A stretch of DNA of 64,000 nucleotides, from the NCBI RefSeq assembly GCF_018228765.1, contig NZ_CP073695.1, forward strand, positions 496,001-560,000, read 5' to 3'. This document shows, piece by piece, positions 223 to 16,054 of this stretch. A program made the position numbers and the translations under genes. Each line of letters begins with the position of its first letter. Positions within the stretch are counted from its first letter, which is position 1. A model generated the notes under the pieces. The model was given only the letters and a program-made list of their open reading frames with translations, ran no database searches and was not told where the DNA came from. The stretch comes from Halorubrum ruber. Its GTDB lineage: Archaea > Halobacteriota > Halobacteria > Halobacteriales > Haloferacaceae.

Positions 223-252
223 AGGGGGGGCCGAGCCAACGCCAGTCCGCGT

Positions 253-336
253 GCGAGGGTAGCCAAGCCCGGAAACGGCGGCGGATTCAAGCTCCGCTCC
301 TGTAGAGGTCCGTGGGTTCAAATCCCTCCCCTCGCA
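253..336 (+). tRNA. tRNA-Leu (anticodon CAA)
   Basis: An 84-nt class II tRNA. The acceptor strands GCGAGGG and CCCTCGC pair fully and are followed by discriminator A336. The anticodon stem GCGGA/TCCGC encloses loop TTCAAGC, so the anticodon is CAA, which reads UUG. The long variable arm TCCTGTAGAGGTCC identifies it as leucine, and the T arm is GTGGGTTCAAATCCC. CCA is not encoded. Its 3' end is repeated several times downstream (see 337-860), so it looks like a repeated integration target. Confidence 0.95.
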
Positions 337-860
337 TGAGCGCGTCCACAACGCGCGAATGCATCAGGGGAGAGGATTTGAATCAGGGAGCGCCTCTGGC
401 GCGACCGTGGTTCAAATCCCTCCCCTCGCATCGCCGGGGTCCACCCCCCGTGATGCGGAAGACGCTCTCGGAGCGCTCTTCCCTCGCAAAACTTCACTCG
501 ACTCACGCAGAGCCCCCGGTATCGCCAAGCCCGGAAACGGCGGCGGATTCAAGCTCCGCTCCTGTAGAGGTCTCGTGAGCGAGCGACGCGAGCGAACGAG
601 AGCACGCGAGTCGCAGCCGGCGAGCGAAGCGAGCCGGACCGTCTCGCGGTGGTCCGTGGGTTCAAATCCCTCTCCTCGCATGAACGCGCCCACAGCGCGC
701 GAATACATCAGGGGGGAGGATTTGAATCAGGGAGCGCCTCTGGCGCGACCGTGGTTCAAATCCCTCCCCTCGCATCGCCGGGGTCCACCCCCCGTGATGC
801 GGAAGACGCTCTCGGAGCGCTCTTCCCTCGCAAAAATTCCTCAGTCGACTCTCGTAGCCG
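337..860 (+). repeat. Tandem array of tRNA-Leu 3'-end remnants
   Basis: This stretch holds no gene. The 21-bp T-arm/acceptor end of tRNA-Leu (316-336) recurs at 410-430 and 754-774 exactly, and at 660-680 with one change. A flank of about 170 bp starting just after the tRNA (337-510) is repeated at 681-853 with few differences, so the region is an imperfect tandem duplication of tRNA plus flank, about 344 bp in period. Before each extra copy lies an inverted partial copy (GAGGATTTGAATC at about 373 and 717), giving a quasi-palindrome centred on GCGCCTCTGGCGC. tRNA 3' ends are the usual attB of archaeal tyrosine integrases, so these are best read as leftover att sites. No integrase gene is seen. 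Confidence 0.75.
524..680 (+). pseudogene. tRNA-Leu pseudogene split by an ~80-nt insert in the variable arm
   Basis: Positions 524-572 copy the D arm, anticodon arm (again with loop TTCAAGC) and the start of the variable arm of the intact tRNA-Leu. About 80 nt of unrelated hairpin-rich sequence follow, then 651-680 resumes with GGTCCGTGGGTTCAAATCC and an acceptor end that has one change (CTCTCCTCGC). GGTC is present at both edges of the insert, like a short target duplication. The 5' acceptor strand is missing: the bases before 524 are CCCGGTATC, not GCGAGGGTA. It cannot fold as a functional tRNA. Confidence 0.7.
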
Positions 861-14434: not shown

Positions 14435-14524
14435 GCGCCCCCGTCGTAGAGCTTTTCGGGCCGATGCGCGCGGGTCGACGGGCGCAACAATAGCTACAAA
14501 CGCTCGCACGAATAGCCTGTGCGT

Positions 14525-15637
14525 ATGGAGACTGCCCACGACGTTTTCGTCGGGAACTCGACCTCGCTCTCGGAGTTAGACGACAACGAGGTCGAACTCG
14601 TCGTAACCTCCCCGCCGTATCCGATGATCGAGATGTGGGACGACCTCTTCTTCTCGCTGAACGCAGACATCGAAACGTCTCTCGACGAAGGCGACGGTCG
14701 GCGGGCCTTCGACCTGATGCACGAGGAGCTCGCCGAGACGTGGGACGAAGTCGAACGGGTCCTCGTTGACGGCGGGATCGCGTGTATCAACGTCGGCGAC
14801 GCGACTCGGAAGGTGGACGACAGTTTCAGAGTCTACCAGAACCACGCGCGTATCACCGAGCGCTTCGACGAGATGGGGTTTGAACCCCTCCCGGACATCC
14901 TCTGGCGGAAACCCGCCAACTCGGCGGCGAAGTTCATGGGGTCGGGGATGATGCCACCGAACGCGTACGCGACCCTCGAACACGAGTACCTGCTCGTCTT
15001 CCGTAACGGGAAACAGAGCCGGGAGTTCCCGTCCGGGACCGACGTCCGATACGAGTCGGCGTACTTCTGGGAGGAGCGCAACGAGTGGTTCTCCGACGTC
15101 TGGGAAGACGTTCGGGGAACGTCACAGGAGCTAACGGACGCCGACACCGAGCTCAGGGACCGTTCGGCCGCGTACCCGCTGGAAGTCCCGTACAGGCTCA
15201 TCAACATGTACAGCGTCTACGGAGACACAGTGCTCGACCCGTTCTGGGGGACCGGGACGACCTCGCTGGCGGCGATGATCGCCGCTCGGAACTCCGTCGG
15301 GTACGAGCTCCAAGAGAAGTTCACGGAGGTGTTCGACGCGGAGGTCGCCGACGTCGCGGAGCTCGCTCACGCCACGGTGTCGAAACGGGTTCGAGACCAC
15401 GAGGAGTTCGTCGAGCAGCGCTTGGAAGACGGCAAGGAGTTCAAATACGACGCCGAAAACTACGACTTCCCGGTCACGACGAAACAGGAGAAACCCCTCC
15501 AACTCTATACGATCGACGGCGTCGAGCAGACGGAGAGCGGATACGCCGTGACGCACTCCCCGTACAACGAGTCCGAGTCGATCGACGGGGACGCAGACGG
15601 TCACGGACAGGCAACCCTTGGGAGTCAGTTCCGGTAA
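14525..15637 (+). CDS. Beta-class DNA methyltransferase, probably orphan CTAG N4-cytosine methylase
   Basis: 370 residues. Catalytic motif IV TSPPYP is at residues 28-33 and the SAM-binding motif I DPFWGTGTTS near 237-246; motif IV before motif I makes it beta class. TSPPY is typical of N4-cytosine enzymes and DPPY of adenine enzymes. No restriction endonuclease is adjacent, so it is an orphan. Haloarchaea commonly carry an orphan CTAG m4C methylase (zim), and the size and N-terminus fit my memory of that group; the assignment is tentative. Start at ATG 14525 (a GTG lies two codons upstream). It sits next to tRNA-Val att-like remnants. Confidence 0.85.
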   Translation: METAHDVFVGNSTSLSELDDNEVELVVTSPPYPMIEMWDDLFFSLNADIETSLDEGDGRRAFDLMHEELAETWDEVERVLVDGGIACINVGDATRKVDDSFRVYQNHARITERFDEMGFEPLPDILWRKPANSAAKFMGSGMMPPNAYATLEHEYLLVFRNGKQSREFPSGTDVRYESAYFWEERNEWFSDVWEDVRGTSQELTDADTELRDRSAAYPLEVPYRLINMYSVYGDTVLDPFWGTGTTSLAAMIAARNSVGYELQEKFTEVFDAEVADVAELAHATVSKRVRDHEEFVEQRLEDGKEFKYDAENYDFPVTTKQEKPLQLYTIDGVEQTESGYAVTHSPYNESESIDGDADGHGQATLGSQFR

Positions 15638-15980
15638 CTTCTCCAGGCGTTCCAACCGGCCTCTCCGTACCTGTAGCTCGCGGAATTGCTCGCCCAGGAG
15701 ATGGGCTCGGGCGGGTTCAAACCTCACTCACTCCGCTCGCCGCCGAGGTGCTCGCGTTGCTCGCACCTCGCACCGCTCGCTCCGTTCCCTGCTTCGAACC
15801 CGCCCTCAAACACGCACGTTGCTGTCGCTCGCGAAATTGCTCGCGACAGCAACAGTGGGCTCGGGCGGGTTCGAACCGAAATCGGACGTGCTCGCTCGCT
15901 TCGCTCGCTGCGCGCGACCGATAGGGTTCGAACCGCGCCCTCGCAGACATTTCTGTGACTCACTTCGTTCGTCCCAGAAA
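15638..15980 (-). repeat. Remnant tRNA-Val 3' ends between the methylase and tRNA-Val
   Basis: No gene is visible here. The discriminator/acceptor/T-arm end of tRNA-Val, 22 bp beginning TGGGCTCGGGCGGGTT, occurs at 15702-15723 (one change in the T loop) and 15856-15877, in the same orientation as the intact gene whose end is at 15981-16002. Each is preceded by a short sequence that pairs with the bases across it (for example GAAATTGCTCGCGACAGCAA). A separate T-arm-like palindrome GGTTCGAACC lies near 15926. These look like successive att scars. Confidence 0.65.
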
Positions 15981-16054
15981 TGGGCTCGGGCGGGTTCGAA
16001 CCGCCGATCTCAGCCTTGTAAAGGCCGCGTCATAACCAGCTAGACCACGAGCCC
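15981..16054 (-). tRNA. tRNA-Val (anticodon UAC)
   Basis: 74 nt on the minus strand. Acceptor strands GGGCTCG and CGAGCCC pair completely, with discriminator A at 15981. The D arm contains AGCTGGTTATG. The anticodon stem CGGCC/GGCTG encloses loop TTTACAA, so the anticodon is UAC (valine). The T arm is GGCGGTTCGAACCCGCC. CCA is not encoded and no intron is present. Its 3' end is duplicated twice downstream (15638-15980). Confidence 0.95.

Follow-up and report, generated by a model that had tools for sequence, protein, structure and literature searches.

Hairpin units ending in copies of the local tRNA 3' end stand in arrays behind tRNA genes of Halorubrum ruber and other haloarchaea

Why should a tRNA gene be followed by serial copies of its own 3' end? 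The question is raised by tRNA-Val(UAC) of Halorubrum ruber, which lies in the 64,000-nucleotide stretch of DNA that we analysed (hereafter the window), in a genome of one contig and 3,021,820 bases. The original prediction had placed two additional copies of the tRNA-Val end behind this gene, each preceded by a sequence able to pair with it, with an orphan DNA methylase immediately beyond, and had proposed either one family of integrating elements or a shared repair outcome.

The tRNA-Val(UAC) array and its neighbourhood

All the described features are present (Table 1). The tRNA gene is flanked by a DUF192 gene on one side and, on the other, by the array and then the N6/N4 DNA methylase. Read in the tRNA sense, unit 1 (15980-15856) consists of hairpin A1, an inverted T-arm, hairpin B1 and the exact copy, and unit 2 (15855-15702) of A4, an inverted T-arm, B3 and the copy with one mismatch. 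The inverted arms precede the copies and can pair with them, and the two stretches running from arm through hairpin B to copy fold as single strands with z-scores of -4.05 and -3.53 against shuffles. What follows unit 2 is probably the remnant of an older unit. Throughout the 3.02-Mb genome, a 20-mer of the tRNA-Val 3' end (up to 3 mismatches) matched the gene, the two copies, tRNA-Val(CAC) and one other place; the reversed pattern gave no match in the same whole-genome search. The copies start at G53 (at this locus one base earlier) and stop at the discriminator base. They lack a CCA end, and we therefore rejected an origin from mature tRNA.

Table 1. Features of the tRNA-Val(UAC) and tRNA-Leu(CAA) loci (window coordinates)
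Feature	Position	Strand	Evidence
tRNA-Val(UAC) gene, array anchor	15981-16054	-	ARAGORN; Rfam RF00005, 64.5 bits
Unit 1, trailer hairpin A (A1), abuts tRNA discriminator base	15950-15980	-	weak fold alone, z -1.52
Unit 1, inverted local T-arm copy	15925-15938	-	pairs with copy 1 in fold
Unit 1, hairpin B, family B1	15878-15924	-	7 strong genome places; B1-like at 19 tRNA species
Unit 1, copy of tRNA-Val 3' end, 22 nt, exact	15856-15877	-	sequence match
Unit 2, trailer hairpin A (A4)	15819-15852	-	fold z -3.89
Unit 2, inverted local T-arm copy	15791-15804	-	pairs with copy 2 in fold
Unit 2, hairpin B (B3 + extra nested hairpin)	15724-15790	-	sequence comparison
Unit 2, copy of tRNA-Val 3' end, 22 nt, 1 mismatch	15702-15723	-	sequence match
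Trailing hairpin (A2, 15670-15698) and decayed inverted arm (15649-15661), probable older remnant	15649-15698	-	inference
Orphan N6/N4 DNA methylase, accessory neighbour	14519-15637	+	PF01555, 6.8e-37
tRNA-Leu(CAA), second anchor in window	252-337	+	ARAGORN
tRNA-Leu(CAA) array, copies 410-431, 660-681 (1 mismatch), 754-775	410-775	+	sequence match

On the other hand, the idea that methylase and remnants might form one island in some strains was not borne out. Several congeners have no methylase at the orthologous place, and in them the array adjoins a permease gene; moreover, the whole-genome 20-mer search (up to 3 mismatches) found no tRNA-Val 3'-end copy on the far side of the methylase. We therefore rejected the idea of an island with the tRNA and the methylase as its borders; the latter is an accessory gene next to the array and not the bounded cargo of an element.

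The second tRNA to which the original prediction alluded is presumably Leu(CAA), at the other array of the window. There, the copy at 660-681 closes a near-complete copy of tRNA-Leu whose variable arm is interrupted by a hairpin. The trailer is repeated, and the array looks as if tRNA and unit had been duplicated together.

A recurrent unit behind many tRNA genes

We searched about 1.5 kb on both sides of 45 tRNA genes of this genome (47 ARAGORN calls minus two with implausibly long introns) for each gene's own 22-nt 3' end, allowing up to 4 mismatches within 600 nt downstream. Such a copy was found behind 18 of the 45 genes, compared with 23 of 1722 cases when flanks of other tRNAs served as control, and upstream of a single gene, which belongs to a tandem Asp pair; the remaining 27 tRNAs have no such downstream copy. 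Similar counts were obtained in a congener, G100 (20 of 46 tRNAs; control 26/1810), and copies also occur in a different genus, in Halosimplex pelagicum (8 of 48 tRNAs, this count using 48 of 59 Rfam tRNA matches; control 25/1968). Incomplete units are present as well, for example at Arg(CCG) and Gly(GCC). Just past the arrays lie two further repeat families, one with gaacaccgccaaagccccagccg and one with ggtggcgcgtgcctccgag, e.g. after Ser(GGA), Leu(GAG), Gly(GCC), Arg(GCG), Leu(UAA) and Pro(UGG).

From all fetched loci we segmented 194 distinct units, a number that takes in the second tRNA-Asp gene of tandem pairs. Their median length is 125 nt (quartiles 114 and 142), and they share one order: first hairpin A, next the inverted local T-arm, then hairpin B, and last the 3' end of the local tRNA, which begins at G53 and closes with the discriminator base. 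Every counted unit carries the 21-22-nt duplication, perfect in 119 of the 194, and the tRNA itself stays intact beside the units. The inverted arm is local in origin: its fit to the core of its own unit adds up to 1958, whereas 200 permutations gave a mean of 1738 (sd 13.7) and no value above 1777. Units that are this compact and alike at so many tRNAs led us to reject, as a general case, the view that they are what large islands left behind on decaying. A genuine displacement by a larger element was found once, at locus L152. Here and at L093, it looks as if a large element had broken tRNA-Gly(UCC) in its anticodon loop, displacing the 3' half together with a hairpin unit.

Some arrays depart from the common architecture. 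At tRNA-Phe, arrays of several genomes (L065 and L217; L288 and L312) include a unit that retains the tRNA starting with the anticodon arm and has its hairpin exactly at the start of the T-loop, i.e. a split pseudo-tRNA-Phe. In the tRNA-Val array of L125, an AT-rich insert of about 0.25 kb interrupts hairpin A1. At L132, an AT-rich stretch of about 0.8 kb comes after the first Val unit and contains an ORF of membrane type (182 aa). This possible cargo lies between two tRNA-Val 3'-end copies, without a hairpin B.

The B1 family allowed us to follow one hairpin across loci. An 80-nt B1 query returned seven strong places in this genome, all just 3' of tRNA genes, namely Val, Asp, Gly(CCC), Gly(UCC), Pro, Ala(CGC) and Ala(GGC), and none away from them; the next match reached only 50 bits over 32 nt. 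B1 was found in at least 93 of the 148 genomes and at least 21 of the 28 genera of the family. Across the phylum it occurred in 33 of 294 genomes, every one of them in the order to which the window belongs. An exact-pattern scan of 84,980 species genomes yielded 45 stretches, all haloarchaeal by title, and one viral contig. The titles name Halorubrum, Halobellus, Halosimplex, Halorubellus, Halovenus, Salinigranum, Halopenitus, Halorarius and archaeal metagenome-assembled genomes, one of which is titled only 'uncultured archaeon A07HN63'. Of the 47 matches in these 46 stretches, 40 have a same-strand tRNA ending at most 700 nt upstream, always in the same orientation (40/40), and in the other seven the tRNA is cut by the slice, was missed by ARAGORN or has a displaced 3' end. 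Plasmid and phage collections contained no B1 match. The viral contig (L190, from IMG/VR) carries at 230-520, on the minus strand, a tRNA-like gene at the contig end, apparently with an intron, and then a B1 unit.

The five-base-pair stem of B1 covaries (ATCAG/CTGAT, ACCAG/CTGGT, ATCGG/CCGAT, ACCGG/CCGGT and rarer variants) around an inner sequence that is nearly constant, an invariance partly fixed by the selection pattern that defined B1. In total, 337 of 345 stem cells are paired, where 2000 shuffles gave a mean of 307.9 and a maximum of 317. Stem variants are held in common by 86 of 164 comparisons of the same tRNA in different genomes (0.52, against 0.32 expected; reached by 0 of 1000 permutations) and by 17 of 42 comparisons between different tRNAs of one genome (0.40). 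B1 lineages are thus bound to a tRNA for the most part, but not entirely.

The position directly after tRNAs, the T-rich starts and this covariation are what one might expect if the arrays were tRNA trailers that are transcribed and retained for use as terminators, processing signals or small RNAs, like the tyrT repeats of E. coli. We nevertheless think this very unlikely. Mismatches between arm and copy are about as often A.C (63) as G.T (68), so that there is no trace of RNA pairing being kept; an Rfam search of the array found the tRNA itself as its only family, the next match scoring 19.3 bits where 84 are needed; and the many tRNAs that do without units, together with the free variation in units among orthologues, argue against a retained function.

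Variation between relatives and the order of the arrays

The same remnants at this tRNA in all genera would have pointed to ancient relics, and this is not what we found. Even within the genus, the tRNA-Val loci of 30 genomes (those returned from 39 searched, our own included; L116, L141 and L143 contain N or adaptor-like sequence) hold 0 to 3 units of differing types, with at least four A types and at least five B types freely combined.

Comparisons between relatives are informative about where units differ. At tRNA-Ala(GGC), our genome has the tRNA, a 132-nt unit and then a sequence that in G100 follows the tRNA directly, beginning at the same base. The two genomes also differ at Ser(UGA) and Lys(UUU), where the additional units lie on the tRNA side. 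Likewise, the flank found right after tRNA-Val in L117 is the flank after the last copy in L119-L123. In seven Val arrays of mixed type, B2 or B5 comes first, B1 or B4 second and B3 last, and none of 11 ordered pairs is discordant; the untypable L134, L135 and L143 were left out of this test and the hybrid unit of L123 was entered as B4. We had also expected distal copies to be older and worse. This expectation failed, as the copies show no outward decay (mean mismatches of 0.79, 0.86 and 0.64 at order 1, 2 and 3). Considering these aligned loci together, the array comparisons fit stacking at the tRNA side, in arrays that share common descent, while the filled and empty pairs could be exact losses between repeats.

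Growth next to the tRNA would be reminiscent of casposons and CRISPR, whose repeat units likewise form arrays and are added on a leader side. Transposition by a Cas1 or casposase-like enzyme with a 21-nt target duplication would account for local copies at any tRNA and for insertion on the leader side, and the accessible text of PMC6614799 describes a casposase of A. boonei that targets the 3' end of tRNA-Pro. However, Cas1 (PF01867) is absent from this genome and from G100, and it was found in 46 of the 148 family genomes, fewer than carry B1; besides, the inserts of the units are palindromic and recurrent, not unique spacers. We consider a casposon-like origin at tRNA 3' ends very improbable.

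Integrase elements at the same site and the possible origin of the units

In the same genome, tRNA-Lys(CUU) is followed by a 5.2-kb integrase element, an exact 21-nt copy, a 105-nt hairpin unit, a diverged copy and then a sequence that comes directly after the tRNA in G100. The integrase (P0001; 340 aa) combines PF00589, which has six matches in this genome, with an N-terminal SAM-like domain. Among named viruses, its closest relatives are SNJ2 (42%), Halfgib1, HHPV4 and HRPV9; plasmid relatives comprise 25 records, and homologues occur in at least 128 of the 148 family genomes. According to the accessible parts of PMC8371274 and PMC5867852, SNJ2-type integrases form a family restricted to Halobacteria, and SNJ2 integrates in tRNA-Met with an att site of 13-14 nt. 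We apply the label SNJ2-type on the strength of sequence matches and of these published descriptions.

We fetched 30 integrase loci. In 21 of them the 3' end of a tRNA recurs as a 21-nt copy, 63-214 nt upstream from where the integrase begins; the tRNAs concerned are of eight kinds (Lys, Tyr, Phe, Ile, Pro and three Arg). Seven others have no copy, one is doubtful and one has the tRNA itself alone. Identity ends at G53 or some bases before it, some cores reaching further into the T-stem. A further copy lies nearby in 9 of the 21, and in L300 and L316 the integrase lies between tRNA-Ile and copy, which are separated by less than 2 kb. Junction and core are therefore common to integrase elements and units. 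When the integrase elements' own ends were inspected by eye for hairpins B of known types, none was seen, and the 21-nt core is absent from the stretches of SNJ2 and HRPV9 that were read. Among the matches listed, B1 and an SNJ2-type integrase lie about 1.5 kb apart or less in three places (G126:C66, G137:C47 and G076:C1).

Since the copies equal the integrase core and are mostly intact, selection might keep the arrays as decoys, spare 3' ends that divert integrating viruses from the functional tRNA. At Lys(CUU), however, the integrase element lies between tRNA and unit, which means that the tRNA continues to be used, and we consider a decoy role highly improbable.

Repair deserves more weight, although we regard it as unlikely on balance. 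Homologous recombination, unequal crossing-over and template switching at palindromes may multiply or exchange units through the short homologies of tRNA 3' ends, with no dedicated integrase. This would agree with the identical or near-identical tandem units (four at Lys(UUU) and two at Glu(CUC) in G100; Val in L143), with the free mixing of A and B modules and the existence of hybrid or nested hairpins, and with the local inverted arm, which quasi-palindrome correction could explain. Repair would not readily place the left junction precisely where the tRNA gene ends, a point at which donor and recipient have no evident homology, nor make it coincide with the junction of the integrase elements. 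The fixed orientation of B1 and the lack of B1 places away from tRNAs in this genome speak against it too.

We rather favour the possibility, which we hold to be probable though far from certain, that the units are miniature integrative elements without an integrase, stacked at the tRNA side and sharing the landing site of SNJ2-type elements. They would be non-autonomous relatives of these elements, as MITEs are of transposons. Resident SNJ2-type integrases may insert them in trans by recombining at the T-loop and 3' end; each insertion would restore the tRNA from the core of the element and shift the old 3' end outwards, and through this outward displacement the stacks would gain new units next to the tRNA. 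The recombination site would probably include the inverted arm and hairpin B. The original proposal of a single family of integrating elements holds in kind, given the 18 tRNAs concerned, the common mobile-looking core and the SNJ2-type integrase site; its members are not scars of methylase-bounded islands, being complete at about 125 nt.

Several observations count against miniature elements. The units hold hairpins and copy alone and encode no recombinase, and no excised form was seen. In a plain att exchange, moreover, the new tRNA 3' end comes from the element, so that the presence of B1-like hairpins at 19 kinds of tRNA among the fetched loci needs core switching between tRNAs, of which no case was observed. 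Also on this side weigh the tie of B1 variants to a tRNA, which is clear but partial, the lack of outward decay in the copies, the possible reading of filled and empty pairs as exact losses, the integrase loci and the SNJ2 and HRPV9 stretches in which no core was found, and the integrase cores that reach further into the T-stem.

Integron arrays are built by a tyrosine recombinase, with units added at one anchored end, and every unit has at its 3' end a hairpin whose tip varies. In general layout, the haloarchaeal arrays would resemble them in tyrosine-recombinase logic and in anchored stacking, and they do so in the variable-tip hairpin that closes each unit; they differ in that the units have no genes, the anchor is a functional tRNA gene and the hairpin stem is the tRNA T-arm, and in this comparison of layout no IntI or attC boxes came to light. 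On ordered addition at the anchored end bear the Val order without discordant pairs, the tRNA-side position of the additional units (Ala, Ser, Lys) and the missing mismatch gradient. One may ask whether tRNA genes of haloarchaea anchor integron-like arrays, in which each hairpin unit carries a folded recombination site whose stem rebuilds the T-arm as double-stranded DNA, and a T-loop-specific tyrosine integrase captures single strands and stacks them, newest first, behind any tRNA with a matching T-arm. We find this doubtful and give it a small chance. If true, the longer inserts that keep a 3'-end copy, such as the one of about 0.8 kb in L132, would be gene cassettes.

The units bear the closest comparison with SNJ2-type elements, i.e. 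the betapleolipoviruses SNJ2, HHPV4 and HRPV9 and related integrated elements. Both are found in haloarchaea only and are stacked at the same tRNAs, and in both a tRNA 3'-end duplication flanks the insert and the tRNA is restored. The units are distinguished by their size, their local inverted T-arm and their hairpins, and they encode no SNJ2-type integrase, unlike the 5.2-kb element at Lys(CUU); we therefore class them as working like, or depending on, SNJ2-type elements and not as members. If they are integrative elements themselves, they would be smaller than any other known to us. Tandem units closing in a tRNA 3' fragment are also a feature of the E. coli tyrT repeats, which likewise lie downstream of the tRNA gene. 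Those repeats are longer and belong to one locus of one lineage, and we know of no inverted T-arm in them.

In its accessible part, PMC3119063 covers MITEs and PATEs of haloarchaea and mentions a provirus with a 22-nt tRNA-Ala duplication at its end. Like MITEs and PATEs, the units are short, non-coding, palindromic and presumably mobilised in trans. The MITEs described there relate to transposons, whereas the units sit at tRNA 3' ends, and PATEs (IS605-type) are described there as lacking a target duplication, whereas the units carry one of 21-22 nt derived from the tRNA. PMC9897764 deals, in the portion available, with tRNA fragments left by integrative elements. Within the open-licence literature, as far as its texts were accessible, we found no description of hairpin units stacked at tRNAs.

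If our preferred reading is right, some haloarchaea bear, at about two fifths of their tRNA genes, a class of mobile DNA for which that literature yielded no description, and which would be tied to a virus-type integrase family found in most genomes of the family. This would explain partial tRNA ends that occur without islands and would offer natural att sites for haloarchaeal genetics, and the switching of integrases between tRNAs would become testable. Furthermore, the local inverted T-arm raises the question of whether folded single-strand sites for tyrosine recombinases may exist beyond integrons.
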